Program-made: the position numbers and the translations under genes
Notes under the pieces: generated by a model
Database searches by the model: none
The model's input: the letters and a program-made list of their open reading frames with translations, nothing else
Told to the model about the DNA's origin: nothing
In this document: positions 47,150 to 63,103 of the stretch, piece by piece
How positions within the stretch are numbered: position 1 is the first letter of the stretch
How the letters are laid out: each line of letters opens with the position of its first letter
Assembly (NCBI GenBank): GCA_030619925.1
Contig: JAUXAL010000004.1
Span: forward strand, 18,661-82,660
Reading direction: 5' to 3'
From: Phycisphaerae bacterium
Lineage (GTDB): Bacteria > Planctomycetota > Phycisphaerae > Sedimentisphaerales > Anaerobacaceae
DNA length: 64,000 nucleotides

Positions 47150-47625
47150 CGCTCCTCCCCCATATTCGACGAGTCGTCCTCTAATATCAGCCATGCCAAC
47201 TCGCTCGACCATTCCAGACCCAGTGCCGCGAGATATGCTGGCCCGTTTTCTGAGGCCGCGGCCCTCGGCGTATGCCCTCTAACGCTGTACTTGCCCAGCT
47301 GGTGTCCAACGCCGACGGCAATGATAATGGATGCCGCCACGCGGACCACCGCCGGCAGAAACCCTATCTGCATATCACGAGCGATCTTGTGTTGTTGTTG
47401 ACCTCGTTCTGCCTCCTTAGCCAGGGCCGTGATTCTCTCCGCCACATCGTGATCGGCTGTATCAACATCCCATTGCCCAAGTGCATTCCACATCTTAGCA
47501 GCTTCCCGCCAGCGTTCGGAACACTCCTTGCATGCCGCTATGTGTTCTCGTACCTCTTCGTCTCTGGACGCTGTTAGTTTGCCAGCCACATATTCTATCA
47601 ATTCGATGTCATTTACGTGTTTCAT
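47146..47625 (-). CDS. Membrane anti-sigma factor with zinc-finger-like domain
   Basis: A 159-residue protein starting MKHVNDIELIEYVAGKLTAS. The ZAS-type anti-sigma motif is HIAACKECSERWREAAKMW (H..xC..C), preceded by DEEVREHI. Residues about 87-105 are a membrane helix (IGFLPAVVRVAASIIIAVGV). It should hold the ECF sigma factor encoded just upstream inactive at the membrane until the periplasmic partner transmits a signal. The sigma gene ends 47 bases earlier. The downstream gene overlaps by four bases. Confidence 0.85.
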   Translation of the reverse strand: MKHVNDIELIEYVAGKLTASRDEEVREHIAACKECSERWREAAKMWNALGQWDVDTADHDVAERITALAKEAERGQQQHKIARDMQIGFLPAVVRVAASIIIAVGVGHQLGKYSVRGHTPRAAASENGPAYLAALGLEWSSELAWLILEDDSSNMGEER

Positions 47626-47672
47626 TATACTTACCCATACTTTAAACGGTCTCAAAGCCTAAAAACTGCGGA

Positions 47673-48230
47673 CTATTCAACAAAATATTTCATTTTATCC
47701 AACTTTTCTCGCAGATTTGCATACGCTCTAACCAGCAGCGATTCGACTGCCGACTTAGTCCAGCCCGTTACTTCGCCGATCTCTGCGTGACTCAAGCCAT
47801 CGTACCGATGTAGTATCACCGCCAGCCGCTGGCGCTCTGGCAGCTCATTAACGGCTGTTTTTACCAATTCCGCAACTTCCTTTCTTTCAGCGGCGTTACA
47901 GTCCGATTCGGCCAGTACTGCCTGGCCCGCCTCCTCCAGCGATACTGCAGTCTTAGCTTGCTTGCGTTGTTCATCGAAGCAAAGGTTTATGACAATACGG
48001 TAGAGCCAAGTCGTGAACTTGGCTTTCGGCTTGTAGTGTTTCGCTGCCCTATAAACCCGCAAGAACGTTTCCTGAGCAACATCTTCAGCTCTGTGCCAAT
48101 CCCTGAGGACACGGTAAGAGAGCGACAAAACCTTGTCCTGATGTCTCCTTACTAGATCACCAAGGGCGGACATATCGCCCGCGGCGAGACGAGTCATCAG
48201 TTCAGTGTCATTAGGCTTGTCACTTGTCAT
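47673..48230 (-). CDS. ECF-type RNA polymerase sigma factor
   Basis: A 185-residue sigma factor. Region 2 reads DLVRRHQDKVLSLSYRVLRD, then AEDVAQETFLRVYRAAKHYK and FTTWLYRIVINLCFDEQRKQ; region 4 reads ELPERQRLAVILHRYDGLSH then AEIGEVTGWTKSAVESLLVR. This is a typical ECF protein, and the gene order sigma, anti-sigma, periplasmic sensor matches metal- or envelope-stress systems such as CnrH. It is divergent from the Gly/Cys-rich protein gene. A palindrome with a GGAAC core in the 490-base gap is a candidate promoter element for autocontrol. Confidence 0.92.
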   Translation of the reverse strand: MTSDKPNDTELMTRLAAGDMSALGDLVRRHQDKVLSLSYRVLRDWHRAEDVAQETFLRVYRAAKHYKPKAKFTTWLYRIVINLCFDEQRKQAKTAVSLEEAGQAVLAESDCNAAERKEVAELVKTAVNELPERQRLAVILHRYDGLSHAEIGEVTGWTKSAVESLLVRAYANLREKLDKMKYFVE

Positions 48231-48723
48231 GACAGAGATTCAACTCCTGGACCTTGTCAAAAACACATGTCTTTATACTACTTCTATGCATTCGAGTTCA
48301 ATCAAAAATTTTTCAAGAAAGACCGCAGGCTTGAGTTGGCTCAGTCAGTTAAAGGGATGACTGTAGAAGGTTCCGGAACCGTGTAAGAACGACTCGGCCA
48401 TGGTTAGTTTCGACCGAACGCATGGGCCAGTGCAGCAATAGGTGTGAAATCCAAAGAACTCAGGTGTAATCTGGGGCTTTGCCCTGAAACGGCGTCACTG
48501 ATACGGAAAGTTCTGGATGCGGTGTTGAATAAATTGCATAGTCGAACATTTTTTTGAATAGAAGCCAAAAATTACCCGCAGGTCTTAACACCTTGTCTTC
48601 GTTAAATATGTGGACGTGCAAAACTCGAGAGTTGCGATTCCACTTGATAAGAAAGAAAAGAAGAATCAGCATTGCTTCGCAATGAGAATCAAACTGAAAC
48701 GATATGAATTAAGGAGAACAAAA
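48231..48723. other. Divergent control region between sigma factor and Gly/Cys-rich gene
   Basis: No gene is seen in about 490 bases. It holds the perfect 12-base palindrome GGTTCCGGAACC at 48369-48380; GGAAC is the usual -35 core of ECF promoters, and the palindrome offers it on both strands. No clear -10 is certain. The Gly/Cys-rich gene has its AAGGAG ribosome site at 48713-48718. Confidence 0.5.
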
Positions 48724-49515
48724 ATGAGAACGAAAATGTCAATAGGTATCATTCTGGCTGCCGTTGTTGCAATTGGGCTTACCGCCGTCTCTGCAAACGG
48801 GCAGGCATCTGAGACCCGTAGAGCCGCCCGGAGAGACCGACGGCTTCAGGCACTTGCCTCTCTCGACGCGCCTGTTGACCCACAACTACCCGGCTATGGC
48901 GAGCCCAGAGGTGAAGGTCGTGGACGCGGAACCGGAGCAGGCAATTGGAGCGGTCGTCCCGTAGCTCAACGTGGCAGACTTGGTGGTTGCAGCGACTGTG
49001 GTGGCGGTGGTCAAGGGTGTGGAACCACCGGCGGCAATTGCAGCTGCAGCGGTTGTTCCGGAGCTCAATGTGGCAGACTTGGTGGTTGCAGCGACTGTGG
49101 TGGTGGTCAAGGCCGTGGAGCCGTCGGAGGTAATTGCAGTTGCAGTGGTTGTTCCGGAGCTCAATCTGGCAGGCTTAGTGGCTGCAGCGACTGCGGTGGT
49201 GGTGGTCGAGGCTGTGGAACCGTCAGAGGCAATTGCAGCTGCAGCGGTTGTTCCGGAGCTCAATCTGGCAGGCTTAGTGGCTGCAGCGACTGTGGCGGCG
49301 GTGGTCAAGGCCGTGGAGCCGTCAGAGGCAATTGGAGCGGTCGCTTCGGAGGCCAACATGGCAGGCTTAGTGGCTGCAGCGACTGTGGTGGTGGTCAAGG
49401 CCATGGGGCCGGTAGAGGCAATTGGGGTGGTTGTCCCGGAGCCCAACGTGGTAGAGGCTACGGTCGAAACTATGCTCGTAACTTTGCTCCGCAGAATAGA
49501 GGAGGATGCCGCTGA
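48724..49515 (+). CDS. Secreted Gly/Cys-rich tandem-repeat protein
   Basis: A 263-residue protein with a signal peptide (MRTKMSIGIILAAVVAIGLT then AVSANGQA). From residue about 75 on it is built of five repeats of 25-35 residues, each with GRL(S/G)GCSDCGGG, then RG(N/C)-type GNCSCSGCSGAQ. CxxC and CxCxxC pairs recur throughout, giving over 25 cysteines. The C-terminal tail turns to GRNYARNFAPQNRGGCR. The cysteine spacing suits soft-metal binding, or a cross-linked surface layer. The location beside an ECF/metal-sensor operon supports metal binding; no family is recognised. The DNA repeats keep other frames open too, but only this frame has a signal peptide and ribosome site. Confidence 0.8.
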   Translation: MRTKMSIGIILAAVVAIGLTAVSANGQASETRRAARRDRRLQALASLDAPVDPQLPGYGEPRGEGRGRGTGAGNWSGRPVAQRGRLGGCSDCGGGGQGCGTTGGNCSCSGCSGAQCGRLGGCSDCGGGQGRGAVGGNCSCSGCSGAQSGRLSGCSDCGGGGRGCGTVRGNCSCSGCSGAQSGRLSGCSDCGGGGQGRGAVRGNWSGRFGGQHGRLSGCSDCGGGQGHGAGRGNWGGCPGAQRGRGYGRNYARNFAPQNRGGCR

Positions 49516-49871: not shown

Positions 49872-49901
49872 ATTAGCGTCCACTAAAGTAAAGTGAGAAG
49901 C

Positions 49902-50183
49902 ATGAGTAAGACCTCAGATTTAGCTTATGTTTGTAAGATTTTGTCCGTAGGTACACGGGTCCGGATTCTTCAATTGTTGAAGGGTCGCGCTCTTTGTGTA
50001 GGAGCCCTTTCGGCCCGGTTAGACGTTACACAAGGAGCTGTCTCGCAGCACTTGAGAATTCTCAGAGACGCAGATTTGGTTGTGGCCGAGAAACGTGGGT
50101 ACTTCGTCCACTATCAGCTGAACGAGAGGACGCTAAGTAAATGGAAGAGTATGGTGGACAGGTTACTCACAACCAATGCTTAG
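49902..50183 (+). CDS. ArsR-family transcriptional repressor
   Basis: A 93-residue winged-helix protein starting MSKTSDLAYVCKILSVGTRV. The recognition region reads CVGALSARLDVTQGAVSQHL then RILRDADLVVAEKRGYFVHY, typical of ArsR/SmtB proteins. A Cys is present at the helix-3 position (LCVGAL) and another near the N terminus (VCKIL), but the classical ELCVCDL metal site is not complete, so the inducer is uncertain. A few codons upstream lies a GTG. It opens a cluster with a Cys/His-rich peptide and a heavy-metal-chelation-domain protein. Confidence 0.9.
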   Translation: MSKTSDLAYVCKILSVGTRVRILQLLKGRALCVGALSARLDVTQGAVSQHLRILRDADLVVAEKRGYFVHYQLNERTLSKWKSMVDRLLTTNA

Positions 50184-50228
50184 TCCTTTGACCACAATAT
50201 TTAATGACATATCGAAAGGCCAAGAGAC

Positions 50229-50366
50229 ATGTGTGAAGGCAAGAAAACATGCCAGAAACCAGAAGAACCTGCTGGCAAGCCTCATGATTGCTTGCCTGAG
50301 CATGTCCGAAAATGCCACGGAGACGTCGGCGAACATCCGTGCGTCAAGAGAGCCAAAAAGAAATAG
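50229..50366 (+). CDS. Small Cys/His-rich protein, likely metal-binding
   Basis: A 45-residue protein: MCEGKKTCQKPEEPAGKPHD then CLPEHVRKCHGDVGEHPCVK and RAKKK. It has five Cys and four His, in C-x5-C, C-x7-CH and C patterns, and a basic tail. It begins 45 bases after arsR and ends 70 bases before the DUF364 gene, in the same direction. I recall similar tiny proteins beside metal-related genes, but have no named family. A weak GAAAGG precedes the ATG. Its composition is far from random for this DNA, which supports it being real. Confidence 0.65.
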   Translation: MCEGKKTCQKPEEPAGKPHDCLPEHVRKCHGDVGEHPCVKRAKKK

Positions 50367-50436
50367 CGTTGGGACTGGTAAGTGGCTGGATGCATCATGC
50401 TGTTGCCAGCCATAACTCCTGTCCGTGAGATATCCC

Positions 50437-51180
50437 ATGAGCATTTTGGAAAAAGCCAAGAATGAATTCATCCGTGTCTGCAACGAGCGAAGCCTCGATC
50501 TGAATCAGGCCGTCATTATCCATCCCTTACTACCTCGTGATGCCATCGGAGATGCGGAGGGCGATTTCGTAATCAAGAAGGGCAAAGAGTATGTGATTGA
50601 GGCCACATTCGAAAACACATGTGGGCAAGCCTTTACCGGCACACCCTGCGAGTGGAGCGGAACGTTAGAAGAGTTATTGTCTCTGGAGTTGTCGGATATA
50701 AGCAACCGAGGCATCTTTGTGTCCGCTATGAACGCGGTACTGCGTACTCTTGGCGTGGCGACCGGCACAATCCACTGTCGTGATGAAGACCCAACCAACT
50801 GCGGTCCCGAGATTGCAGGACAACTTAAGGCCCGCTTCGGATCCAAACGATTTGGCCTTGTTGGCCTTCAGCCGGCCATTTTGAAAGGTCTTACAAACCA
50901 TTTTGCCCCAGAGTTTGTTCGTGTCGTGGATCTTAACCCTGACAACATCGGCAGTCTGAAATTTGGCGTCGAAATCTGGGATGGACAAACCGATCTGCGG
51001 CGTCTCGTGGAATGGTCGGAGGTTGGCTTGGCCACGGGGTCCAGCATTGTCAACGGTACCATCGACGAGGTCATTCGATGTTTCAAAGATGATGGGAAAC
51101 CTCTGGTGTTCTTCGGCAACACCATCTCCGGTGCAGCGGCCCTATTGGACATAGATCGCATCTGCCCGTTTGGGCGTTGA
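50437..51180 (+). CDS. DUF364 putative heavy-metal chelation domain protein
   Basis: A 247-residue protein. LVGLQPAILKGLTNHFAPEF, VRVVDLNPDNIGSLKFGVEI and VGLATGSSIVNGTIDEVIRC match the C-terminal Rossmann-like part of DUF364 (heavy-metal chelation family); the N-terminal half has EYVIEATFENTCGQAFTGTP, an enolase-N-like region as in that family. DUF364 proteins are found near nitrogenase-like and metal-transport genes; the reaction is not established. The ATG at MSILEKAKNEFIR was chosen over a GTG four codons earlier. It follows arsR and the small Cys/His protein. Confidence 0.85.
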   Translation: MSILEKAKNEFIRVCNERSLDLNQAVIIHPLLPRDAIGDAEGDFVIKKGKEYVIEATFENTCGQAFTGTPCEWSGTLEELLSLELSDISNRGIFVSAMNAVLRTLGVATGTIHCRDEDPTNCGPEIAGQLKARFGSKRFGLVGLQPAILKGLTNHFAPEFVRVVDLNPDNIGSLKFGVEIWDGQTDLRRLVEWSEVGLATGSSIVNGTIDEVIRCFKDDGKPLVFFGNTISGAAALLDIDRICPFGR

Positions 51181-51348
51181 ACGTGCTTGTTTGGATCGTA
51201 TGAGTTAAGTCTTCGCGAATTAGCAGGTTTGAGGCCAGCTTTCTACAAGGACGTCAGCCTGCTCGCCTTGCCCACAAAATACCCAACGCCCAACCGTTAT
51301 GAAAATCTAATTGTTGCGGAAACCATTCCTATGTGGTACAAATAAATC

Positions 51349-52683
51349 ATGTTAAATAGGGTACGAAGTAAAGAACGAGATGTTATTTTGGACTCAATAA
51401 CCGAGGGTGTTTTCACGGTGGATTCGAATTGGCGGATCACCTCGTTTAATCGGGCCGCTGAGGAAATTACGGGAATTCCTCGCGCAAAGGTCCTCGGACA
51501 AAAGTGTAGCGATATATTGAGGGCGGATGTTTGCGAGACGAAATGCGCACTGCGTGAAACAATGGGAACCGGCAAACCTATAATCAGCAAAGCGGTCCAC
51601 ATCGTTGATGCCAGGGGAGAGCGACACGCAATTGCCATATCTACGGCTGTGCTAAAAGATAAAAGTGGTAAGGTTATTGGAGGCGTGGAAACATTTCGTG
51701 ATATGAGCCTTGTTGAGCAGCTTCGTAAAGAAATTAGTCACAGCTATAGCTTCGAAGACATTCTGAGCCGAAATCATCAGATGCAAAATCTCTTTGCTGT
51801 TCTGTCAAACATCGCTGAAAGCAATACTACGGTTTTAATTGTTGGCGAAAGCGGCACAGGCAAGGAACTTTTCGCCCGGGCCATTCACAATATCAGCTCT
51901 CGCAAGGATAAACCTTTTATTGCGGTAAATTGTGGCGCACTGCCGGATACACTGCTCGAATCGGAACTGTTTGGCTACAAAGCCGGTGCATTTACCGATG
52001 CGAAAAAGGACAAGCCCGGCCGATTTGCCCTGGCTGAAGGCGGTACAATTTTCCTGGATGAGATCGGTGATATTTCAACTGCGTTGCAGGTTCGGCTGCT
52101 GCGCGTGTTGCAGGAAAAAGTCTATGAACCGCTCGGCTCTGTATCTTCTGTCAAAGCTGATGTCCGTATTATTACCGCAACCAATAAAGACCTGGACAAG
52201 TTAGTTGAAGCCGATAAGTTCAGGGAAGATTTGTATTATCGAATCAATGTCGTCAAATTGGCGATTCCGCCGTTGCGAGACAGAAAAGAAGACATCCCTC
52301 TTTTGATAGACCACTTTATAGGCCGATTCAATCACCTCCATAATAAGAATATAAATGGCGTCACAGACCAAGTGTTAGCTACTCTCTTGGAGCACGACTA
52401 CCGAGGTAATGTACGTGAACTTGAGAACATCATTGAACATTGTTTTGTTTTGTGCCAGGGCGAGATAATAGAGAGGAAACATCTGCCAGCAAGTTTCCAA
52501 ACAACCGCAGATACCGGTTACCCTGATATTAAAAAAGCGGTAACTCTCGAAGAGATGGAAAGAATATTCATCACGCACGCCTTGAGGCAAAACAACGGCA
52601 ACCGCACCGCCGCTGCAAAACAGTTGGGTATTCACAAAAGCACCCTCTTCCGCAAATTAAAATCCCTCAACATAGAGCTCTAA
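51349..52683 (+). CDS. PAS-domain sigma-54-dependent transcriptional activator
   Basis: A 444-residue enhancer-binding protein. The PAS domain (10-120) carries a cysteine cluster, GQKCSDILRADVCETKCALR (Cys53, 62, 66), which in similar proteins may bind an iron-sulfur cluster for redox sensing. The AAA+ domain (140-370) has Walker A GESGTGKE at 166-173, YKAGAFTDAKKDKPGRF where most activators have GAFTGA, and GGTIFLDEIGDIS. The C-terminal Fis helix-turn-helix reads ALRQNNGNRTAAAKQLGIHK. It should activate the sigma-54 promoter found 150 bases after its stop and thereby the downstream NifX/MinD cluster, as DVU2106 does for the orp genes of Desulfovibrio vulgaris. Confidence 0.92.
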   Translation: MLNRVRSKERDVILDSITEGVFTVDSNWRITSFNRAAEEITGIPRAKVLGQKCSDILRADVCETKCALRETMGTGKPIISKAVHIVDARGERHAIAISTAVLKDKSGKVIGGVETFRDMSLVEQLRKEISHSYSFEDILSRNHQMQNLFAVLSNIAESNTTVLIVGESGTGKELFARAIHNISSRKDKPFIAVNCGALPDTLLESELFGYKAGAFTDAKKDKPGRFALAEGGTIFLDEIGDISTALQVRLLRVLQEKVYEPLGSVSSVKADVRIITATNKDLDKLVEADKFREDLYYRINVVKLAIPPLRDRKEDIPLLIDHFIGRFNHLHNKNINGVTDQVLATLLEHDYRGNVRELENIIEHCFVLCQGEIIERKHLPASFQTTADTGYPDIKKAVTLEEMERIFITHALRQNNGNRTAAAKQLGIHKSTLFRKLKSLNIEL

Positions 52684-52690
52684 TGCAAGC

Positions 52691-52737
52691 CGCAAAATGC
52701 GACTGAGCTAAGTAGCCAAAAGACGCATAATGCAACT
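52691..52737 (+). promoter_or_regulatory. Candidate upstream activator sites
   Basis: CGCAAAATGCGACT (52691-52704) and CGCATAATGCAACT (52724-52737) are direct repeats 33 bases apart, three helical turns, each centred on the palindrome GCA-N3-TGC. They lie about 100-145 bases before the -24 element of the sigma-54 promoter, the usual position for an enhancer-binding protein. Confidence 0.6.
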
Positions 52738-52834
52738 CATTTAGTTTTCCATTGGCAACTCAAAACACATACAAATTTTCTAACCTCTGTGTCAATAAAG
52801 ACATACACTCATTGCTCTTCTTTCGACATCTTTT

Positions 52835-52850
52835 TGGCACATCACTTGCT
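52835..52850 (+). promoter_or_regulatory. Sigma-54 (-24/-12) promoter
   Basis: TGGCACATCACTTGCT matches the consensus TGGCACG-N4-TTGCW with one difference and exact spacing. The start of transcription is expected near 52861, only about 6 bases before the ATG of the NifX-like gene, so the mRNA would be nearly leaderless. Confidence 0.88.
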
Positions 52851-52866
52851 CAAATAGTTTAGTGAT

Positions 52867-53277
52867 ATGAGTAAGACAACAAAAATAGCGATACCCGAAT
52901 GGCAGGGGTGTGTTTCGACGGTCTTTGATTTTGCTAATAGACTGCTGCTGATCGATATTGATGGGAACGAGGAAATAAACCGGGCTGAGATAGCTTTGCC
53001 CGATGAACCTATGCTGCAACGGGTTACCAGCCTTAAAAATCTTGGCGTTGACGTACTGATATGTGGAGCAATTTCGCGGCCTTTGTCGTTTATGATCACA
53101 GGATTAGGAATTGAAGTTTTACCTTACATAAGTGGTCGAATCGACGAAGTCCTAAATGCGTATTTGACAGGACGATTAACAGAGCAGCGGTTTTCGATGC
53201 CGGGGTGCTGGCCAGGTGCGAGGAAAGGTTTTGGCCGCGGACACCGCGGTAGACGAAGATGTCGCAGAAGATGGTAA
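52867..53277 (+). CDS. NifX/ORP-like dinitrogenase iron-molybdenum cofactor domain protein
   Basis: A 136-residue protein: KIAIPEWQGCVSTVFDFANR, LLLIDIDGNEEINRAEIALP, GVDVLICGAISRPLSFMITG and VLPYISGRIDEVLNAYLTGR are the NifX/NifB-type fold elements. The C-terminal tail GCWPGARKGFGRGHRGRRRC is Gly/Arg-rich with two Cys. In Desulfovibrio, homologues (orange protein) carry a Mo-Cu sulfide cluster; the same is an inference here. First gene after the sigma-54 promoter and therefore probably the main controlled gene. Confidence 0.88.
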   Translation: MSKTTKIAIPEWQGCVSTVFDFANRLLLIDIDGNEEINRAEIALPDEPMLQRVTSLKNLGVDVLICGAISRPLSFMITGLGIEVLPYISGRIDEVLNAYLTGRLTEQRFSMPGCWPGARKGFGRGHRGRRRCRRRW

Positions 53278-53368
53278 GTTGTTTAACTTTTACTGAAGTT
53301 GGGACAAGGGCGGTTTACTTGTGAAAGTAATATCTTAGGCAGGAAAATGAAAAAGGCGGTGAGCAAGA

Positions 53369-53557
53369 ATGGGTAAGGGCAAAACTTTTGGTGGTTTAGG
53401 AATTGGCATTGTTTTAAGTACGATTGCAACGGCATTTCTCACTAAGAAGAAAAAGAACATTTTTGACGCAGTGAAAAAACATTTTGGAAGTCTTGCGCCA
53501 TTACTAAAGTCATTAACTTCATGCGCAACTGAGCAAAACAAGAAGGAGGTGACATAA
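53369..53557 (+). CDS. Small membrane-associated protein, paralogue 1
   Basis: A 62-residue protein, MGKGKTFGGLGIGIVLSTIA then TAFLTKKKKNIFDAVKKHFG. A glycine-rich hydrophobic segment (residues 8-25) is followed by a basic amphipathic helix. The design is the same as the next gene and like YtxH-type small proteins. Role unknown. It ends with AAGGAGGTGA, the ribosome site for the next gene, so translation is linked. Confidence 0.7.
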   Translation: MGKGKTFGGLGIGIVLSTIATAFLTKKKKNIFDAVKKHFGSLAPLLKSLTSCATEQNKKEVT

Positions 53558-53558
53558 T

Positions 53559-53750
53559 ATGGATAAATCCTTAGGCCAATTACTAATAGGTGCTGTTTTG
53601 GGTGCAGTTGCAGTAGAGGTGTTAAGAGAAAAGAAACCTGAACTTTTTGATGAGATTAAAAAGAATGCAAAGGACATTGCTAAAGACCTTAAGAGCATCT
53701 ACAGTCAGACAAAGACAGCCGTCAATGACTGGGCTCAGAGCGCCTCGTGA
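53559..53750 (+). CDS. Small membrane-associated protein, paralogue 2
   Basis: A 63-residue protein, MDKSLGQLLIGAVLGAVAVE then VLREKKPELFDEIKKNAKDI, with a Gly/Ala hydrophobic segment and a charged helix, as in the YtxH-like group. It starts one base after the previous stop and has a perfect AAGGAGGTGA ribosome site. Paralogous design with its neighbour suggests they work as a pair at the membrane. Function is unknown. Confidence 0.75.
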   Translation: MDKSLGQLLIGAVLGAVAVEVLREKKPELFDEIKKNAKDIAKDLKSIYSQTKTAVNDWAQSAS

Positions 53751-53850
53751 CGAAAAACGTACCAAAATTTCCGAAACAGGCAAGAGCTCTTGGTAGTATT
53801 TGTAAACAGAATCCATATAAATAGTTTCCGATTGAAAGGAGGTGATATAA

Positions 53851-54054
53851 ATGCCAGGTAGAAATAGAACAGGTCCTTCTGGACAAGGTCCGGGAACAGG
53901 CTGGGGCTTAGGTGGTTGCTCAGTCGGCGAGCAGGCTATGACGGGAAATTACGTCAGAGGTTTTGGTTATGGCGCCGGCCGCGGCGGACGTCCCTGGGGC
54001 GGTGGAAGAGGCCGCTGTTCTGGCGGCGGCCGTGGCCGAGGACGCCGGCAGTAA
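53851..54054 (+). CDS. DUF5320-like small Gly/Arg-rich protein 1
   Basis: A 67-residue protein, MPGRNRTGPSGQGPGTGWGL then GGCSVGEQAMTGNYVRGFGY and a Gly/Arg/Trp tail. MPxxxRTGPxGxGPxTGxxxGxC is the signature of DUF5320 proteins, which are regularly found with NifX-like and MinD-like genes in anaerobes. Function unknown. An AAAGGAGGTGA site precedes the start. Two Cys are present. Confidence 0.8.
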   Translation: MPGRNRTGPSGQGPGTGWGLGGCSVGEQAMTGNYVRGFGYGAGRGGRPWGGGRGRCSGGGRGRGRRQ

Positions 54055-54107
54055 ATAAAAAAACAGGTTAATTTGAAAGACACATTTAATGAAAGGAGCG
54101 TGTAATT

Positions 54108-54452
54108 ATGCCAAGAGGTGATAGAACAGGCCCAGCAGGTATGGGCCCAATGACAGGTAGAGCTGCTGGTTTCTGTGCGGGCTACCCAGTTCCCGGCTAT
54201 ATGAACCCTGTTGGCGGGCGCGGCTACTGGGGCTGGGGCAGAGGTAGAGGAATGGGTCGAGGTCGTGGTTTTGGACGAGGCTTTGGTTGGTCCGGTGCCG
54301 CAGGCCCATATCCGGCAAATGCATTTTTTGGGCCAACAGTAACTGCCGAGCAGGAATTGGAAGGTTTGAAGCAGCAGGCAGAATTCCTGCAAAACAGCCT
54401 CGGCCAGATCAACGAACGTATAGAGCAGTTCGAAAAAGAAAGCAAGAAGTAA
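54108..54452 (+). CDS. DUF5320 protein 2 with coiled-coil tail
   Basis: A 114-residue protein. The start MPRGDRTGPAGMGPMTGRAA then GFCAGYPVPGYMNP is the clear DUF5320 signature; the middle is Gly/Arg/Trp-rich (GYWGWGRGRGMGRGRG); residues 80-113 are a coiled coil (AEQELEGLKQQAEFLQNSLG then QINERIEQFEKESKK). Function unknown; it travels with metal-cofactor genes. A hairpin follows 25 bases after the stop. Confidence 0.88.
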   Translation: MPRGDRTGPAGMGPMTGRAAGFCAGYPVPGYMNPVGGRGYWGWGRGRGMGRGRGFGRGFGWSGAAGPYPANAFFGPTVTAEQELEGLKQQAEFLQNSLGQINERIEQFEKESKK

Positions 54453-54476
54453 ACTATTACTATTACTTTTGCTTTC

Positions 54477-54507
54477 CAGAGTGAGGTGCTGTTGCGCCCT
54501 CACTCTG
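54477..54507 (+). terminator. Strong hairpin between DUF5320 and second NifX gene
   Basis: A perfect 10-bp stem (CAGAGTGAGG with CCTCACTCTG) and 11-base loop. There is no T run after it, so it may be a weak terminator, an mRNA stabiliser or processing point that sets the level of the downstream genes. The next start codon is 33 bases later. Confidence 0.65.
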
Positions 54508-54539
54508 TCTATATCTATAGTTTGAGAAGGAAAGTTCTT

Positions 54540-54908
54540 ATGAAAATTGCGATTACGTCAACTGGTCAGACGCTGGATTCACTTGTGGACGAGCGATTTG
54601 GAAGAGCAGCTTACTTTAGCATTGTTGACACTGAAACAATGGATTTTAGTGTCATTGAAAATGAAAATGTGGCTGCCGCAGGTGGAGCTGGCATTAGTTC
54701 TGCCAGGGCTGTAATTGACACCGGTGCCGAAGCTGTGCTGACAGGCAATTGTGGCCCAAACGCTGAACGCGCCCTAAGTGCTGCCGGAGTGAAATTATAT
54801 ACCGGCGTGACAGGGACAGTTTCAGAAGCTCTTGAGCTTTTCCGAAATGGCAAGTTGACCGAGGCTGACGGCCCAAATGTTCAGTCGCATTTTGGCACTG
54901 GCAATTAG
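54540..54908 (+). CDS. NifX/NifB-type Mo-Fe cluster-binding domain protein
   Basis: A 122-residue protein, MKIAITSTGQTLDSLVDERF then GRAAYFSIVDTETMDFSVIE, with AGISSARAVIDTGAEAVLTG and ALSAAGVKLYTGVTGTVSEA. This is the compact MTH1175/NifX-like family whose members bind iron-sulfur-molybdenum precursors. DERFGRAAYF holds the usual cluster-region residues. It is the second of three NifX-like domains in this cluster. An AGAAGG site precedes the start. Confidence 0.92.
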   Translation: MKIAITSTGQTLDSLVDERFGRAAYFSIVDTETMDFSVIENENVAAAGGAGISSARAVIDTGAEAVLTGNCGPNAERALSAAGVKLYTGVTGTVSEALELFRNGKLTEADGPNVQSHFGTGN

Positions 54909-55103
54909 TTTGCTGTAGGAGTGGCTACAGGATAGACAAAGCAGCTTCGCCGATGAATCGGTATACAAAATAGCAAATTCTACCAGGGAATCGATGGCGT
55001 GACCCAGAACCGGTCTGTTTTGATTCATTGCCTCAAAAAGGCTGGATCGTGAAGGACAAATTCGATTGGCACAAATCCAATATTGCCTGGGAGTGCGGTT
55101 GAC

Positions 55104-55955
55104 ATGAAGATTGCCATTGCTAGCGGCAAAGGTGGTACAGGCAAGACGACGATAGCGGTCAATCTTGCTGCATCATATGCACGTATGGGCAGAAGAGTCC
55201 AATATCTTGATTGTGATGTTGAAGAACCAAATGGACATATTTTTCTTAAGCCGAAAATAGATCTCAGTCAGATAGTTACTGTTGATGTACCGCAAGTTGA
55301 TTTGAAAAAGTGTACCGGCTGCGGCAAATGCAGCGAAATCTGCCAATACAGTGCGATTGTACACCTTAAAGAAAATAATGTGTTGACATTTGAGCAGCTT
55401 TGCCACTCCTGTGGCGGCTGTTTACGTGTGTGTCCAGCCGATGCAATTAAACAAAAGCCGCTCAATATTGGAGATATTGAATTTGGCAAGACTGGAGAGA
55501 TTGATTTTATTGGCGGCAAATTATACATTGGCTACGTACGAACAGTATCACTGATAAAAGAAGTAAAAAGGCATATAAGACAAGACTCTCTGGCAATCAT
55601 TGATGTTCCACCGGGTACATCCTGTCCGGTGGTTGAAGCTGTTAAGGGTGTAGATTTTGTTTTGCTTGTGACCGAGCCGACACCGTTTGGGTTAAATGAT
55701 TTGAAGATAGCTGTTGGTTTAGTCCGGGAAATGAATTTGCCCTTTGCTGTTATTATAAATCGCTATGGAATTGGTGATGATGAAGTGGAGAAATACTGCA
55801 AAACTGAGAATATAGAAATCGCTCTAAAGTTGCCGGACGACAGACGCATTGCTGAGGCTTATTCGGTTGGCAAGATGATTGTTGACGTATTACCCGAGTA
55901 CAAGAAAGATTTTTCAGGACTGTATGAAAGTGTTTCCCAAAGGCTCAAAGGCTAA
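55104..55955 (+). CDS. MinD-family ATPase with inserted 2x[4Fe-4S] ferredoxin domain (1)
   Basis: A 283-residue P-loop ATPase. Deviant Walker A: MKIAIASGKGGTGKTTIAVN; then YLDCDVEEPNGHIFL. Two [4Fe-4S] motifs follow at about 70-115 (CTGCGKCSEIC and CHSCGGCLRVCP). Walker B-like: SLAIIDVPPGTSCPVVEA. It is the same type as the two ferredoxin-MinD proteins of the Desulfovibrio orp locus and is proposed to insert or move metal clusters. A TTG seven codons upstream is open but less likely as start. A J-domain gene follows 3 bases after the stop. Confidence 0.92.
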   Translation: MKIAIASGKGGTGKTTIAVNLAASYARMGRRVQYLDCDVEEPNGHIFLKPKIDLSQIVTVDVPQVDLKKCTGCGKCSEICQYSAIVHLKENNVLTFEQLCHSCGGCLRVCPADAIKQKPLNIGDIEFGKTGEIDFIGGKLYIGYVRTVSLIKEVKRHIRQDSLAIIDVPPGTSCPVVEAVKGVDFVLLVTEPTPFGLNDLKIAVGLVREMNLPFAVIINRYGIGDDEVEKYCKTENIEIALKLPDDRRIAEAYSVGKMIVDVLPEYKKDFSGLYESVSQRLKG

Positions 55956-55958
55956 AAA

Positions 55959-56315
55959 ATGAAAAGAGATGACTGGGACTTTATGGAAAGGATAAGCCTT
56001 GATCTGGAGACTCGCCGTATGGCATGTAAAGTTCTTGATGTAGATGAAATGGCAGACAAGAAACAACTTAAGAAAGCTTACCGGCGAGTTGCAATGAAGT
56101 TTCACTCTGATAAAAACTTGAACGGTCCTGATGCGAATAAAAAATTTACGTTGGTCAAATGTGCGTATGAGCTTTTAGCAAATGACAAACCCTGCCACGC
56201 TTTGTTAGAGGAAATTAACTCTTGGCCATGTGTTCCTGAAGATGACAAATACAGACTTGATAACCCATGGGGGCACTTTTTGTGGTGGCGCGAAAAGTTT
56301 TTCGGAGGAATGTAG
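55959..56315 (+). CDS. J-domain protein with altered HPD motif
   Basis: A 118-residue protein. KVLDVDEMADKKQLKKAYRR then VAMKFHSDKNLNGPDANKKF has the helix II-III design of DnaJ proteins, but the essential HPD tripeptide is HSD. KFTLVKCAYELLANDKP completes the J-domain; the C-terminal tail is rich in Trp (HFLWWREKFFGGM). J-domains without HPD usually cannot stimulate DnaK and act as scaffolds or decoys. Position 3 bases after the MinD-ferredoxin gene suggests a shared role in protein or cluster assembly. Confidence 0.82.
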   Translation: MKRDDWDFMERISLDLETRRMACKVLDVDEMADKKQLKKAYRRVAMKFHSDKNLNGPDANKKFTLVKCAYELLANDKPCHALLEEINSWPCVPEDDKYRLDNPWGHFLWWREKFFGGM

Positions 56316-56326
56316 GATTCACTCGT

Positions 56327-56650
56327 ATGGAGAAATATTTAAAATCATGTAAATCAAAATTCTGGAAGGAGGTCTTCAAAGCAGAATTAGACTATATTTT
56401 GCACCAGTTAAAAGGGACTAAAGACATTCTAAGTATCGGATGCGGCCCTGCGATTATAGAGACAGGCCTGGCTGAATACGGTTTTAATGTTACCGGCCTG
56501 GATATTTCCAAAGAGGCTTTAGGTTGTGCACCGGATACTGTAAGAACTGTTGCAGGCTCTGCAGAAAAGATAACCATCAAAAAGGGTGTCAAGATTAATA
56601 CAGTTATTATAGGGAGACTTATCTTATGGAAAGAAAAGTGGATGTTTTAG
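56327..56650 (+). pseudogene. Truncated class I methyltransferase
   Basis: The frame starts MEKYLKSCKSKFWKEVFKAE then LDYILHQLKGTKDILSIGCG, with motif I (ILSIGCGPAIIETGLAEYGF) and TGLDISKEALGCAPDTVRTV. After about residue 85 similarity ends (ITIKKGVKINTVIIGRL) and the frame runs 25 bases into the oxidoreductase gene. A full enzyme would have about 200 residues. The second half has been lost, probably when the oxidoreductase gene was joined. The short product, if made, cannot be a complete methyltransferase. Confidence 0.75.
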
Positions 56651-57972
56651 TGATAGGTGCGGGACCTGCGGGGATAATAAGTGCTGTTACTGCACGAAAA
56701 TATTACCCGGAAAAGAAAATCGCTGTAATAAAAAGTGTAGAGAAAGGTGTGATTCCCTGCGGCATTCCTTATATGTTTGCAAGCTTGAAAGACCCCGAAG
56801 AAAACAAACTTGGCAATGCTGCACTGGAAAAAAACGATATCGATGTAGTCGTGGATGAGGCGATAAAGATAAATCGCAGTGAAAAAACAGTCACCACTAA
56901 GAACGACCGGAAGTTTGCCTATGAAAAGTTGATTCTTGCCACCGGCTCAGAGCCAATTACTCCACCAATAGATGGCATTGATAAAGAAGGTGTTTATCCC
57001 ATATACAAAGATATGGATTACCTCAAAAAACTCATAGAGGAGGTTAAAGAAGCAAAAAATGTTCTGATATTAGGCGGCGGCTTCATAGGCGTAGAGCTTG
57101 CGGATGAAATATCCAAAATAGACGGCTTAAATGTTTCGTTAGTAGAAATGTTGCCCACATTGCTTCCTAATTCCTTTGATGCGGAGTTTTCGGTAGTCGC
57201 CCGTGAAGCGTTGGAATCAAGAGGTGTTACAGTTTTAACCGACACCAAAGTCGAAGAGATTTCAGGTGATGAAAAGGTTGAAAAAGTACGGCTTTCAGAC
57301 GGCAGGGAAATCGCTGCTGACAAAATTATAATTGGAACTGGTGGATTGCCTAACACGAAAATCGCATCTGATGCAGGGCTGAATTTGGGCAGGGGCAAAG
57401 GAGTATTGGTAGATGAATATATGCGTACAAACGACCCGGATGTCTTTGCAGTTGGCGACTGTGCTGCAAAAAGAGATTTTTATACCCATAAAGAAACTTC
57501 GGTAATGCTTGCATCAACCGCTACAGCCGAAGCCAGAATCGCGGGCGCAAATCTTTATAGCCTGAAAGTTGTGCGGGAAAACAAGGGTACAATTGCTATA
57601 TACTCAACTTATATCGACGGAAAGGTATTAGGCTCGGCAGGTCTTACCGAAAATGCCGCTGAAAAAGAAGGGTTTGAAATTGTTACAGGCAATGTTGAGG
57701 GAGTAGATAAGCATCCCGGTACGTTACCTGGTGCGAGCAAGATTAAGCTTAAATTAATCTTTTCAAAAAACTCCGGCATCATATTAGGCGGCCAGGTGGC
57801 CGGCGGAATGTCCTGCGGAGAGATAATAAATCTCATCGGAATTGCTATCCAAAAGAGGATGTCTTTTGTTGAACTGGGAACCCTGCAGATGGCTACTCAT
57901 CCTTACTTGACAAGTGCTCCTACAGTTTACCCGGTTGTGTTAGCCGCTGAAAATGCATCTGCTAAAAGGTAG
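56626..57972 (+). CDS. FAD-dependent pyridine nucleotide-disulfide oxidoreductase (NADH oxidase / CoA-disulfide reductase type)
   Basis: A 448-residue flavoprotein: FAD-binding VDVLVIGAGPAGIISAVTAR, redox Cys45 in VIPCGIPYMFASL, LILATGSEPITPP, NAD-binding NVLILGGGFIGVELADEIS, and FAD-closing NDPDVFAVGDCAAKRDFYT. A C-terminal dimerisation domain follows (VLGSAGLTENAAEKEGFEIV, ending HPYLTSAPTVYPVVLAAENA). The single Cys is that of CoA-disulfide reductases and NADH oxidases. In this cluster it could deliver electrons to the ferredoxin-type ATPases or handle persulfide; that is inference. Its start overlaps the truncated methyltransferase. Confidence 0.93.
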   Translation: MERKVDVLVIGAGPAGIISAVTARKYYPEKKIAVIKSVEKGVIPCGIPYMFASLKDPEENKLGNAALEKNDIDVVVDEAIKINRSEKTVTTKNDRKFAYEKLILATGSEPITPPIDGIDKEGVYPIYKDMDYLKKLIEEVKEAKNVLILGGGFIGVELADEISKIDGLNVSLVEMLPTLLPNSFDAEFSVVAREALESRGVTVLTDTKVEEISGDEKVEKVRLSDGREIAADKIIIGTGGLPNTKIASDAGLNLGRGKGVLVDEYMRTNDPDVFAVGDCAAKRDFYTHKETSVMLASTATAEARIAGANLYSLKVVRENKGTIAIYSTYIDGKVLGSAGLTENAAEKEGFEIVTGNVEGVDKHPGTLPGASKIKLKLIFSKNSGIILGGQVAGGMSCGEIINLIGIAIQKRMSFVELGTLQMATHPYLTSAPTVYPVVLAAENASAKR

Positions 57973-57993
57973 TTTAATGTATAAGGACAGTTT

Positions 57994-58881
57994 GTGAAAG
58001 AAATAGTTGTCATAAGCGGTAAAGGCGGGACAGGCAAGACAAGTATAGTCGCCTCATTTGCCGCACTTGCAAAAAATATTGTGTTGGCCGATTGTGACGT
58101 GGATGCAGCAGACCTTCATTTAGTTTTGCACCCGAATATAAAACAAACTTCTGATTTTAGCGGTGGTAAACAGGCATCTGTTATTACGGAAAAATGCACA
58201 GGATGTGGCAAATGCCAGGAGGTTTGTAATTTCAACGCAGTCCTCTTTAATGGCCCAGCTAATGATGTGGTCGAAAAAACTTGTACCATAGACCCTATCT
58301 CGTGCGAGGGTTGCGGCGTCTGCGTTCACTTTTGCCCAAACGACGCAATAGAGTTCAAAGATGCTGTTAACGGACAATGGTTCATTTCAGATACCAGATT
58401 TGGGCCGATGGTTCACGCAAGGCTTGGAATCGCTGAAGAAAACAGTGGCAAACTGGTAACTCTGATTCGTAAAGAAGCTAAGCGAATTGCCAGCGAACAA
58501 AATAAAGACTTGCTGATTATAGATGGTTCGCCGGGAATTGGCTGTCCAGTGATTGCATCGATTACCGGAGCAGATATAGTTTTGGTAATTACAGAACCCA
58601 CACTTTCAGGAAAACATGATTTAGTCCGGGTCGCGGATTTAACCGCTGGTTTTAATATCCCTACCCTGGTCGCAATCAACAAATTCGATTTGAATCCTGA
58701 TATAGCAGAGCAAATTGAAGAAGATGCTTGTAAGCGAAATGTAAGAGTGGTTGGAAAAATACGTTATGACAAGGCATTTACCAAGGCACAGATTATGAAA
58801 TGCTCAGTAGTTGAGTATACTGGTAGTGCCGTATCGCAAGATGTAAAGGCCCTATGGAGGAACGTTACATATGCCTTTTGA
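57994..58881 (+). CDS. MinD-family ATPase with inserted 2x[4Fe-4S] ferredoxin domain (2)
   Basis: A 295-residue protein with a GTG start after AAGGAC. KEIVVISGKGGTGKTSIVAS is the deviant Walker A, LADCDVDAADLHLVLHP follows, and two [4Fe-4S] motifs come at about 68-115 (CTGCGKCQEVCN and CEGCGVCVHFCP). LLIIDGSPGIGCPVIASI is the Walker B-like part. It is the paralogue of the ATPase at 55104; pairs of this kind are a mark of orp-type loci. Its 3' end overlaps the Mrp-like gene by 11 bases. Confidence 0.93.
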   Translation: MKEIVVISGKGGTGKTSIVASFAALAKNIVLADCDVDAADLHLVLHPNIKQTSDFSGGKQASVITEKCTGCGKCQEVCNFNAVLFNGPANDVVEKTCTIDPISCEGCGVCVHFCPNDAIEFKDAVNGQWFISDTRFGPMVHARLGIAEENSGKLVTLIRKEAKRIASEQNKDLLIIDGSPGIGCPVIASITGADIVLVITEPTLSGKHDLVRVADLTAGFNIPTLVAINKFDLNPDIAEQIEEDACKRNVRVVGKIRYDKAFTKAQIMKCSVVEYTGSAVSQDVKALWRNVTYAF

Positions 58882-60067
58882 CAAAGATCAGCAAAGACAA
58901 TTGCAGGCTGAGCAGGAACAGATTAATCAAAATATAAAACGCATCAAACACCAGATACTGGTGCTCTCCGGCAAAGGCGGTGTAGGCAAAAGTAGCATTG
59001 CCGTTAACCTAGCCGTTTGGCTTTCAATGCTTGGTAAAAGAGTCGGTCTGCTGGATGTTGATATCCACGGGCCAAGTGTTCCCAAATTGCTCAATCTCGA
59101 AGGGAGAAGACTTCAGGGCAAGGGAAATAGAATTGAGCCGATCTTATATAACGACACGCTTAAAGTAATAAGTATAGGGTTCTTGATACAGGATGAAAAC
59201 GCCGCTTTGATCTGGCGAGGTCCTATGAAACATAATGTTATAAAACAGTTTGTCTCAGAAGTCTCCTGGGGTGATCTGGATTATCTGATAATTGACTGTC
59301 CGCCTGGTACCGGTGATGAGCCGTTATCAATAGTCCACCTGTTGGGCAAAGCCGACGGGGCAGTTGTCGTCACTACTCCCCAAGAGCTTGCGGTTGCCGA
59401 TGTTAAAAAGTGCATAACATTTTGCAAACAGTTGAACCTGCCGGTTTTAGGAGTAATAGAGAATATGAGCGGTTTCGTCTGCCCACATTGCAGCCAAAGA
59501 ACCGATATTTTCAAAGGCAACGGCGGCCGGCAGATGGCCAAAGATTTTGATGTACCATTCTTAGGCAGTATCCCGATGGACTCTAATATGGTCTCCGCTG
59601 CTGATTCGGGTAAACCATTCATTTACCACAACAACCAAAGTCAGACAGCTCAGGCTCTCAACTGTGCATTTGAGCCATTAGTGCAATCCAATAGACAAAT
59701 TGAAACCAATAAAAAGGAGCAGAATGAAATGAAAATAGCAATTCCCCTAACAAACGGAAAGTTATCACAACATTTCGGCCATTGTGAGCAGTTTGCCATT
59801 GTTGATGTTGACAGTGACAGCAAGAGTATCAAAAACCAGGAATTACTAAGTCCACCGCCTCATGAGCCGGGTATCCTGCCCAAATGGCTGTCAGGATTAC
59901 ATGTCAGCTTGGTAATTGCAGGCGGTATGGGCCAGCGTGCACAGCAGTTGTTCGTACAAAATCAGATCGAGGTAGTGGTCGGTGCGCCAGCCGAAGCTCC
60001 TGAAGATTTGGTATCAGCTCATCTTAACGGCACACTTGAAACCAGTGGCAACATTTGTGACCACTAA
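58871..60067 (+). CDS. mrp: Mrp/NBP35 ATPase fused to a C-terminal NifX domain (MrpORP-like)
   Basis: A 398-residue fusion. Residues 1-275 are an Mrp/ApbC Fe-S carrier: QILVLSGKGGVGKSSIAVNL, LLDVDIHGPSVPKLL, LDYLIIDCPPGTGDEPLSIV and the cluster-binding Cys pair in VIENMSGFVCPHCSQRTDIF. Residues 287-398 are a NifX domain: MKIAIPLTNGKLSQHFGHCE then QFAIVDVDSDSKSIKNQELL. Fused MrpORP proteins with a Mo-Cu cluster are known from Desulfovibrio alaskensis. At the junction the mRNA has AAGGAG and an in-frame ATG, so the NifX part may also be made alone. Confidence 0.92.
   Translation: MPFDKDQQRQLQAEQEQINQNIKRIKHQILVLSGKGGVGKSSIAVNLAVWLSMLGKRVGLLDVDIHGPSVPKLLNLEGRRLQGKGNRIEPILYNDTLKVISIGFLIQDENAALIWRGPMKHNVIKQFVSEVSWGDLDYLIIDCPPGTGDEPLSIVHLLGKADGAVVVTTPQELAVADVKKCITFCKQLNLPVLGVIENMSGFVCPHCSQRTDIFKGNGGRQMAKDFDVPFLGSIPMDSNMVSAADSGKPFIYHNNQSQTAQALNCAFEPLVQSNRQIETNKKEQNEMKIAIPLTNGKLSQHFGHCEQFAIVDVDSDSKSIKNQELLSPPPHEPGILPKWLSGLHVSLVIAGGMGQRAQQLFVQNQIEVVVGAPAEAPEDLVSAHLNGTLETSGNICDH
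59714..59731 (+). promoter_or_regulatory. Internal ribosome-binding site and start codon in the Mrp-NifX fusion
   Basis: AAGGAG at 59714-59719, 9 bases, then ATG at 59729-59731, which is exactly the first residue of the NifX domain (MKIAIPLTNG). A separate NifX protein of 112 residues could be produced from it. The site also suggests that the fusion arose by loss of a stop codon between two adjacent genes. Confidence 0.65.
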
Positions 60068-60253: not shown

Positions 60254-60460
60254 ATGAGCTTTCTGATGACAAAGATCCTTGACCTCACCGCCAGTATAGG
60301 ACTTTATGATTTGTGGGCACATCACAATCTAAAGGAACTACATGATACCATCATCAAGATAGCAAATCTTAACGGAAATGAACAAGTCTTAGATGTCGGC
60401 TGTGGAACGGGGATAAAGACAGCAGTGGCCAAAGCCGACGGCCCGACGAAATCGCTCTGA
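60254..60460 (+). pseudogene. 5' fragment of a methyltransferase gene
   Basis: Reads MSFLMTKILDLTASIGLYDL then LKELHDTIIKIANLNGNEQV and LDVGCGTGIKTAVAKADG before ending. LDVGCGTG is motif I of a UbiE-like class I methyltransferase; everything after it is missing. It is the second methyltransferase in this cluster cut off soon after motif I. The 190 bases before it (60068-60253) hold an unidentified frame (ENGLAGRTLGARFANSQDAR) too weak to call. Confidence 0.7.
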
Positions 60461-62451: not shown

Positions 62452-62500
62452 CAAGATTGTGTGTTGAATATCTACCGAAGTCTATTTGAGGAGTAGAATC

Positions 62501-63103
62501 ATGAAAAGAGTCTGCTTGTGTACCATTGTTCTCGGCATTTTTGGCCTGGGGATTGTTGCTGTTTTGGCTCACCAGGACAACCCTGTCCCCATCGGCCAGA
62601 AATCAGACGGGCCGGTCCGCTCCACTCCTGGAGAGAATCCTTGGAACCAAGGACAGGCACCCGAGGATTGGTGGGGTGCAATCAAACGTATGCACGGCCA
62701 TGTTGGGCCTTGGAACGTATTGGGGTGGCGTATTGGCCAGGTGGCGTTGCGTGAATTCAATACCAAATGGGGCAGGCACGATCTTGATATCATTTGCTAT
62801 ATTCCTATGGAGACTCCATATTCGTGCATGGCCGATGGTCTGGTCATCGGCACAGGCAACTGTATTGGCCGGCTCGATATTCGCCTGGCTGAGGTGATGT
62901 CGATCGACCTTATTCATGTCGCCATCCGCCGCAAGGACGGCACAGGCCCTCTTTTGATTTTAAGACCGAGGCCTGAGTACCTCAAGCGCATAGAGAGACG
63001 TACAGTGCAAGAGTTGGAAAAACTCTCACGGCAGTGCAGAATCATGAAAGAGAGTGACCTGTTTCGAATCGAGCGGCTTATGTCTTCCAGGACGAAAAAA
63101 TAG
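62501..63103 (+). CDS. Exported FmdE-domain protein
   Basis: A 200-residue protein with a signal peptide (MKRVCLCTIVLGIFGLGIVA then VLAHQ). The body matches the FmdE family: IKRMHGHVGPWNVLGWRIGQ then VALREFNTKW, CYIPMETPYSCMADGLVIGT and NCIGRLDIRLAE. In FmdE-like proteins the His of HGH and the two Cys (SCMADG, GNC) are the metal-site residues. The N-terminal signal is unusual for a family named after a cytoplasmic formylmethanofuran dehydrogenase subunit; exported versions may bind metal or cofactor in the periplasm. A GAGGAG site precedes the ATG. Confidence 0.85.
   Translation: MKRVCLCTIVLGIFGLGIVAVLAHQDNPVPIGQKSDGPVRSTPGENPWNQGQAPEDWWGAIKRMHGHVGPWNVLGWRIGQVALREFNTKWGRHDLDIICYIPMETPYSCMADGLVIGTGNCIGRLDIRLAEVMSIDLIHVAIRRKDGTGPLLILRPRPEYLKRIERRTVQELEKLSRQCRIMKESDLFRIERLMSSRTKK

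Follow-up and report, generated by a model that had tools for sequence, protein, structure and literature searches.

A compact run of genes at positions 49893-60067 of the stretch examined here, a window of 64,000 nucleotides on contig JAUXAL010000004.1 (GCA_030619925.1) of a Phycisphaerae bacterium, combines an apparent counterpart of the orange-protein (orp) system of Desulfovibrio with genes for a J-domain protein, a methyltransferase and a flavoprotein. All coordinates given without a locus label are positions in this window. Gene calls were obtained by Pfam and NCBIfam profile scans of the open reading frames (ORFs) of the window and are listed below together with the promoter and two proposed regulatory sites. 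A preliminary description of this DNA had placed all its parts on one strand, and every gene does lie on the plus strand. Its list of parts is likewise accurate as far as it goes; it overlooked the truncation of the methyltransferase, the HSD motif of the J-domain protein, and the ArsR and DUF364 genes at the 5' end.

49893-50183, +, ArsR-family regulator (PF01022, 55 bits); 91% identical relative at the same position in locus L143
50425-51180, +, DUF364 protein, putative heavy-metal chelation (PF04016, 31 bits, cut-off 23); 91% identical in the syntenic locus L143
51349-52683, +, sigma-54 activator with PAS, AAA+ and Fis-type helix-turn-helix domains (PF00158, 244 bits); GAFTDA at residue 213
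52690-52702, +, palindrome CCGCAAAATGCGA, proposed activator site 1 (motif scan)
52723-52735, +, palindrome ACGCATAATGCAA, proposed second activator site, at a 33-bp spacing from site 1
52835-52850, +, sigma-54 promoter TGGCACATCACTTGCT (0 mismatches)
52867-53277, +, NifX1, orange protein (ORP)-like, Arg/Gly-rich tail (PF02579, 30.7 bits, weak; cut-off 26.3)
53369-53557, +, small protein 1, without Pfam match, paralogue of small protein 2
53559-53750, +, small protein 2, weak YtxH similarity (21.4 bits, cut-off 37.5)
53851-54054, +, short DUF5320-like protein (26.4 bits, just below the 27-bit cut-off)
54108-54452, +, DUF5320 protein (102 bits)
54540-54908, +, NifX2, orange-protein-like (PF02579, 86 bits; D. 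gigas ORP 2wfb, E=1.2e-20)
55104-55955, +, MinD1 ATPase, two [4Fe-4S] motifs (Pfam; orthologous group across phyla)
55959-56315, +, J-domain protein, WGHFLWWREKFF tail, motif HSD (PF00226, 52 bits)
56267-56650, +, class I methyltransferase, truncated, N-terminal half (Pfam; 200-230 aa in relatives)
56626-57972, +, FAD (flavin adenine dinucleotide) oxidoreductase (FADox), coenzyme A (CoA)-disulfide/persulfide reductase superfamily, Cys45 (PF07992, 221 bits; PDB 6pfz, 8a56)
57994-58881, +, MinD2 ATPase, two [4Fe-4S] motifs (Pfam; orthologous group across phyla)
58871-60067, +, MrpORP (Mrp-NifX fusion), CPHC at residue 204 (NF041136, 543 bits, cut-off 450)

Orp-type core and its regulatory region

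The profile scans recover the three NifX-type domains, the two MinD ATPases with double [4Fe-4S] motifs and the Mrp-NifX fusion named in the preliminary description. The NifX domains, including that in the C-terminal part of the fusion (66 bits), are the only matches to PF02579 at E<=0.001 in the 4.0-Mb genome; each MinD protein unites a KGGTGKT motif with two CX2CX2CX3C motifs, and the fusion itself is a member of the NCBIfam MrpORP family. NifX2 matches the solved D. gigas ORP, with two further NifX-type structures, 1rdu and 1eo1, scoring about equally. The two DUF5320 proteins and the two small proteins noted earlier are also present; the latter are paralogous (BLASTP E=8e-11 to each other), and relatives of them were found in none of the 79 loci searched. 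A nitrogenase-cofactor (nif) cluster was considered as an alternative identity and is unsupported, there being no radical-SAM NifB or nitrogenase subunit among the 16 cluster ORFs scanned and only the three PF02579 domains genome-wide; no search for nif genes was made beyond these ORFs. As a separate observation, NifX2 of locus L041 (8067-9674) is fused to a double [4Fe-4S] domain, with a Cys-rich DUF1847 protein and a zinc ribbon of the FmdB type as neighbours, and locus L035 (1318-2109) has a NifX2 frame of length similar to this fusion.

The direct sequence comparison to the Desulfovibrio system was with the D. gigas ORP and the MrpORP model, the other D. vulgaris features being taken from published descriptions. 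The complex of D. vulgaris, which is controlled by sigma-54, is reported to comprise MrpORP, Orp5, Orp8 and two proteins with a pair of [4Fe-4S] motifs apiece, Orp3 and Orp4 (PMC6345978). Like the orp genes of D. vulgaris Hildenborough (DVU2103-DVU2109), the window cluster has a GAFTDA activator, a sigma-54 promoter, ORP/NifX proteins and MrpORP, together with a pair of MinD ATPases that each bear two [4Fe-4S] motifs; the two palindromes upstream of its promoter are candidate counterparts of the palindromic activator sites of D. vulgaris. Unlike them, it lies on one strand in place of two divergent operons, carries DUF5320, J-domain, methyltransferase and flavoprotein inserts, and has ArsR and DUF364 genes upstream. 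Its MrpORP also lacks the N-terminal four-cysteine motif of the D. vulgaris protein, with no cysteine at all in the N-terminal region. We took neither layout nor this motif as defining: single-strand clusters also occur in loci L122 and L123, at least four N-terminal cysteines are present in only 1 of 31 MrpORP proteins from the planctomycete-side set (which includes loci L089 and L099) and 1 of 15 from the phylum of a Desulforhopalus metagenome-assembled genome (MAG), and a CxxC motif is found in all 31 and all 15, respectively.

This latter phylum, inferred from the title of the MAG to be Desulfobacterota, is the other phylum in which relatives were sought. Among 61 genomes, this one plus 60 others drawn from its family and order, 11 have a MrpORP over the cut-off; in the Desulforhopalus phylum it is matched at E<=1e-120 in 40 of 198 genomes, 25 of them over the cut-off. 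Twenty MrpORP regions of that phylum were examined. Two of them, L122 and L123, preserve the window order activator-NifX1-DUF5320-NifX2-MinD1-MinD2-MrpORP at 40-67% identity, and L123 has a 54% identical methyltransferase between MinD1 and MinD2; neither contains a match to the J-protein or FADox at E<=1e-3. In six others (L129, L130, L131, L132, L134 and L136) MrpORP occurs without MinD or NifX matches. The core gene combination thus exists in other genomes, in the same order in L122 and L123.

Phylogenetic trees of the MinD and Mrp proteins, in which housekeeping proteins serve for comparison, point in the same direction. Without an outgroup, 55 of the 116 MinD rows form two cleanly separated groups, MinD1 and MinD2 (100/100), each with rows from Planctomycetota, the Desulforhopalus phylum and Omnitrophota. 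When six housekeeping ParA/MinD-like proteins, which have no ferredoxin motif, are added, MinD1 remains united (92/90, 94% of bootstrap trees) and MinD2 is less firm (74/26, 76%), with the housekeeping rows on very long branches. In the Mrp-domain tree (37 rows) the window protein groups with 19 others, 18 of them cluster-borne, including those of L122, L123, L124 and L099 (98/87); L103 is the sole outside row of this tree. The cluster-borne Mrp rows do not form a single clade (5 changes), those of the Desulforhopalus phylum mixing with lone MrpORPs. On the whole, MinD1 and MinD2 stay apart from the housekeeping proteins, the latter with weak support, and the window Mrp joins cluster-borne Mrp proteins of both phyla. 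Taken together, the MrpORP model, the 2wfb match, the GAFTDA signature, the conserved sigma-54 promoters and the gene order of L122 and L123 uphold the relationship to the Desulfovibrio orp system that had been proposed, and suggest that the core is a member of this known system, with the J-domain and sulfur-related extension as its apparently new part.

The activator gene has the PAS, AAA+ and Fis-type helix-turn-helix architecture expected from the earlier description, and its signature GAFTDA replaces GAFTGA, a variant listed in a table for DVU2106 (PMC4641369). The promoter reported with it is the only site in the window without mismatches; with up to two mismatches allowed, the window contains 19 sites, about as many as the 20.7 expected by chance. 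Of 18 regions that lie downstream of a GAFTDA activator gene, 10 contain a sigma-54 site with no more than one mismatch, and 14 contain one with no more than two. The palindrome motif YYGCA-N(2-4)-TGCRR, allowing one mismatch, is present in 15 of these regions and has 33 matches in all, whereas 300 dinucleotide shuffles averaged 7.2 matches and reached 15 at most, a comparison that is biased because the motif was derived from the same regions; three non-GAFTDA regions have 0 matches.

The window pair consists of YYGCA-N3-TGCRR twice with a 33-bp period, and this exact pair occurs once in the genome, at 52691-52734. A search of whole genomes found it in 8 of 90 family genomes, as against 3 of 90 with a reversed control. 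Five of the eight pairs lie between the activator and nifX1 (this genome, G031, G018, G664 and G685), and G018, G664 and G685 were not among the genomes used for deriving the motif. In the window the pair is 144 bp from the promoter, and the corresponding distance in L163-L165 and L167 is 145-147 bp. In a sixth genome, G009, a sigma-54-like site with 2 mismatches lies equally far from the pair, and there is no activator or NifX match; on its 5.9-kb contig (L163, 5412-5600) the pair and this site are followed by an apparently broken NifX1 start. The two palindromes are likely to be sites of the activator; in D. vulgaris, palindromic activator sites lie upstream of the orp promoter, with integration host factor sites between them and the promoter (PMC3897727). 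Together with the conserved tail of the J-protein described below, the paired palindromes offer markers for finding further members.

J-domain protein and sulfur-handling genes

The J-domain protein and the flavin disulfide oxidoreductase, which the preliminary description had set down as chaperone-like and electron-transfer additions, are genuine and recur in relatives. The J-protein has 118 residues and a conserved WGHFLWWREKFF tail. Scanning genome contigs with a profile of the J alignment, we obtained 40 loci. Record titles place 26 of them in Phycisphaerae, Phycisphaerales or Sedimentisphaerales; a further 11 are from other Planctomycetota, and the remaining three are a locus on a Desulforhopalus MAG contig (L089), an Omnitrophota locus (L099) and an off-target match in Rhizobium. 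L099 has MinD, methyltransferase, second flavoprotein (FAD2) and MrpORP matches beside the J gene. L089 was set aside as a case of cross-phylum transfer, since this 3-kb contig is 89% identical over 1723 bases to the planctomycete L092; it is probably misbinned, judging from this identity.

Of 41 distinct J sequences, from loci some of which share one MAG, two are at a contig edge, leaving 39 with testable upstream sequence. In 35 of the 39 the J gene starts at most 45 bp downstream of MinD1 (measured from alignment ends), the exceptions being L034, L088, L098 and L099. The HPD motif is present in 40 of the 41 sequences. Tail residues W104, G105, F107, L108, W109 and W110 are invariant in an alignment of 35 rows; L148 and L150, which lie outside that alignment, have Cys at position 108. 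An AlphaFold model (mean predicted local distance difference test score, pLDDT, 82.7) contains the J-domain helices and a separate helix, 103-115, made of the tail. A fold search of the PDB with this model ranked J-domains at the top (best E=0.014), with none at E<=0.001. At E<=1e-20 the family is not widespread: of 392 genomes sampled across the phylum 8 have it, and of the 90 in the family 24, this genome included. No J-MinD fusion was seen in the phylum and family genome scans, where J reading frames have at most 206 residues. Elsewhere in this genome, PF00226 matches one more protein, DnaJ, and there are three HSP70-family matches, one of them full length at 865 bits, and one NifU-type scaffold.

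A small J-protein encoded with cluster-assembly genes recalls HscB/Hsc20 of the iron-sulfur cluster (ISC) system, and we propose that it acts as a dedicated Hsp70 co-chaperone analogous to HscB. The window protein differs from HscB in having no HSCB_C match up to E=0.1 and an NCBIfam HscB score of 16.8 bits against a cut-off of 198, as well as a different tail, the motif HSD and a location outside any isc operon.

In 7 of 40 J loci (L073, L083, L085, L086, L087, L096 and L097) a FADox flavoprotein of 75-81% identity comes after the J gene or the methyltransferase; two more matches, in L064 and L076, are located elsewhere. Given this recurrence, a general NADH oxidase adjoining by chance was set aside as an explanation. 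Its best PDB matches are NoxA-3 (6pfz) and CoA-persulfide reductase (8a56). FADox shares with the CoA-disulfide and CoA-persulfide reductases the FAD and dimerisation domains and Cys45 in a C-G-I-P-Y context; unlike CoA-disulfide reductase, it scores below the NCBIfam equivalog cut-off (237 bits against 578.8) and has no rhodanese domain, in contrast to the FAD2 of L041, which carries one. FAD2 matches are present in 7 of 40 J loci. Other sulfur-handling genes recur as well: in 14 of 41 rows a DsrE gene is situated downstream of J at a distance of at most 7 kb. DsrE replaces J between MinD1 and MinD2 in L039 and L053, and stands between methyltransferase and FADox in L151 and L158, while NifU-like scaffold genes adjoin the orp genes of L118 and L124, the former also with a TauE transporter.

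The methyltransferase is full length in relatives (200-230 aa). Because that of the window is truncated, DsrE was not found and the J motif is HSD, the window copy may be partly decayed, with its accessory branch impaired; misassembly may also be the source of the truncated gene. A second methyltransferase fragment (68 aa) is seen just downstream of MrpORP, at 60254-60460, and in several related loci a different methyltransferase separates MinD2 from MrpORP.

Proposed mechanism and alternatives

Gene content, order and orthology, the conservation of promoter and paired sites, and the position and conservation of the J-protein are observed, and every biochemical step set out here is inferred from them. 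They make it reasonably probable that the cluster specifies a sigma-54-controlled orp-type machine which assembles and delivers a metal-sulfide cluster, in a form specific to the Phycisphaerae lineage. The PAS activator would sense a redox, metal or sulfur signal, bind the palindromes at 52690-52735 and open the sigma-54 promoter at 52835, so that the genes from nifX1 to mrpORP would be made together, with ArsR and DUF364 contributing metal control and handling. The CoA-disulfide/persulfide-reductase-like flavoprotein, in relatives also DsrE and rhodanese, would reduce and pass on sulfane sulfur. MinD1 and MinD2 would draw on ATP and on their own [4Fe-4S] clusters in reducing or loading the cluster on the NifX/ORP proteins, and MrpORP would take it to targets; in vitro, MrpORP is reported to pass Fe-S clusters to Orp3-Orp4-Orp8 (PMC6345978). 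The J-protein would dock on a partner in the complex, plausibly via its C-terminal helix, and recruit DnaK for release, as has been proposed for HscB/HscA on IscU. With no DsrE match, a truncated methyltransferase and the HSD motif, this organism may be impaired in the sulfur-supply and J-chaperone steps.

A more specific and more tentative proposal, which we regard as possible and somewhat short of even, is that Phycisphaerae evolved a dedicated Hsp70 co-chaperone for a pathway based on Mrp/Nbp35 and ORP, independently of HscB/ISC, in which J would direct DnaK to free clusters from MinD1, NifX or MrpORP, and sulfur would come from DsrE and a CoA-persulfide reductase. If true, Hsp70-assisted cluster delivery would reach beyond IscU-type scaffolds to Mrp/Nbp35 P-loop carriers, which are also used by eukaryotes. 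More generally, the accessory genes point to sulfur supply and chaperone-assisted cluster handling for the orp system, and offer concrete partners. Among the matches listed from the open-licence literature there was no paper on the orange protein or MrpORP in planctomycetes, nor one on a J-domain with NifX, Mrp or ORP, and the main text of a 2025 survey of sigma-54 regulons that includes Planctomycetota leaves Mrp and the orange protein unmentioned (PMC12316311).

Several observations weigh against cluster assembly with a J-chaperone and sulfur branch. The window J-protein, alone among the 41 sequences, has HSD in place of HPD, and the proline of this motif is important for Hsp70 stimulation. 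Of the 90 family genomes, 66, many of which are incomplete, showed no J, so that the orp core seems able to do without it; in L088 and L098, J has no MinD match at its side. The methyltransferase match of the window ends after about residue 103, with FADox directly next to it, and this 92.8%-complete genome has no DsrE match. On the regulatory side, non-GAFTDA activators in L046 and L133 likewise have a 1-mismatch sigma-54 site downstream, L053, L121 and L137 are without the palindrome motif, whose shuffle test has the bias noted above, and the pairs in G020 and G643, with neither activator or NifX nor a sigma-54-like site, look like chance.

The published orp studies themselves give a putative role in cell division, with polar localization of MrpORP (PMC6345978, PMC3897727), and the MinD-like ATPases could accordingly be imagined to position proteins at the septum while their ferredoxin domains report the redox state. 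We hold this to be distinctly improbable for the present cluster: the accessory genes that accompany it (DsrE, rhodanese, CoA-disulfide reductase, NifU-like) belong to types that handle sulfur and clusters, no division gene was seen among the proteins scanned, and the Fe-S cluster transfer by MrpORP cited above also speaks against it. A response to sulfur, polysulfide or metal stress, in which stress would induce the genes, the flavoprotein reduce persulfide and the Fe-S ATPases repair clusters, with repair in place of the synthesis of a special cofactor, would account for the ArsR and DUF364 genes at the 5' end, which are syntenic in L143, for the extracytoplasmic function (ECF) sigma factor, zf-HC2 anti-sigma factor and sub-threshold Metal_resist protein further upstream on the opposite strand, and for the resemblance of FADox to CoA-persulfide reductase. 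The NifX/ORP proteins and MrpORP, however, indicate the building or carrying of clusters, and the ArsR-DUF364 module is rare, so that this reading appears fairly unlikely.

The J-protein might also be a passenger of the operon with no part in cluster handling, whether as a general DnaJ-like helper or as a remnant without function. Its HSD motif in the window, its absence from the matches in most family genomes and its location away from the cluster in L088 and L098 are what such a passenger could show; its position after MinD1 in the great majority of loci, the near-universal HPD and a tail conserved across Planctomycetota and one Omnitrophota locus argue otherwise and make this improbable.

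The 5' metal module and flanking genes

The coupling to heavy-metal genes at the 5' side that had been proposed is correct in that ArsR and DUF364 are present there and in synteny in L143, where ArsR, DUF364, activator and NifX1 are 91, 91, 76 and 60% identical to those of the window, and a second NifX is at the place of the small proteins. The case for coupling is nevertheless weaker than that for the other additions, with one other syntenic genome and a DUF364 relative in 5 of 90 family genomes. Four of these relatives are at least 78% identical (this genome included), and all four genomes carry the J gene; in G681 and G694 the DUF364 gene is away from the cluster (L144, L145). In the Desulforhopalus phylum, DUF364 relatives are near the orp clusters L118 (43%) and L124 (40%). 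DUF364 has been linked to genes for molybdate, tungstate, vanadium or iron transport or chelation (PMC2954201), links that fit a Mo or W role without proving it.

Just upstream of the ArsR gene, an ORF at 48610-49515 spans about five tandem 99-bp repeats, each coding for a Cys/Gly-rich unit of roughly 33 residues. Its N-terminus looks signal-like by eye and it has no Pfam match; its product is possibly a secreted metal-binding protein. The ECF sigma factor, zf-HC2 anti-sigma factor and Metal_resist protein (24.3 bits, cut-off 29.2) mentioned above are encoded at 46274-48230 on the minus strand and are a possible metal-sensing set. Proteins of the DUF4405/cytochrome b561-like type are found both upstream of the window cluster (45249-46238) and inside the cluster of L036 (9616-9969). 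On the 3' side, 2.4 kb downstream of MrpORP, an FmdE-like protein (PF02663, 46 bits) is encoded on the same strand at 62486-63103.

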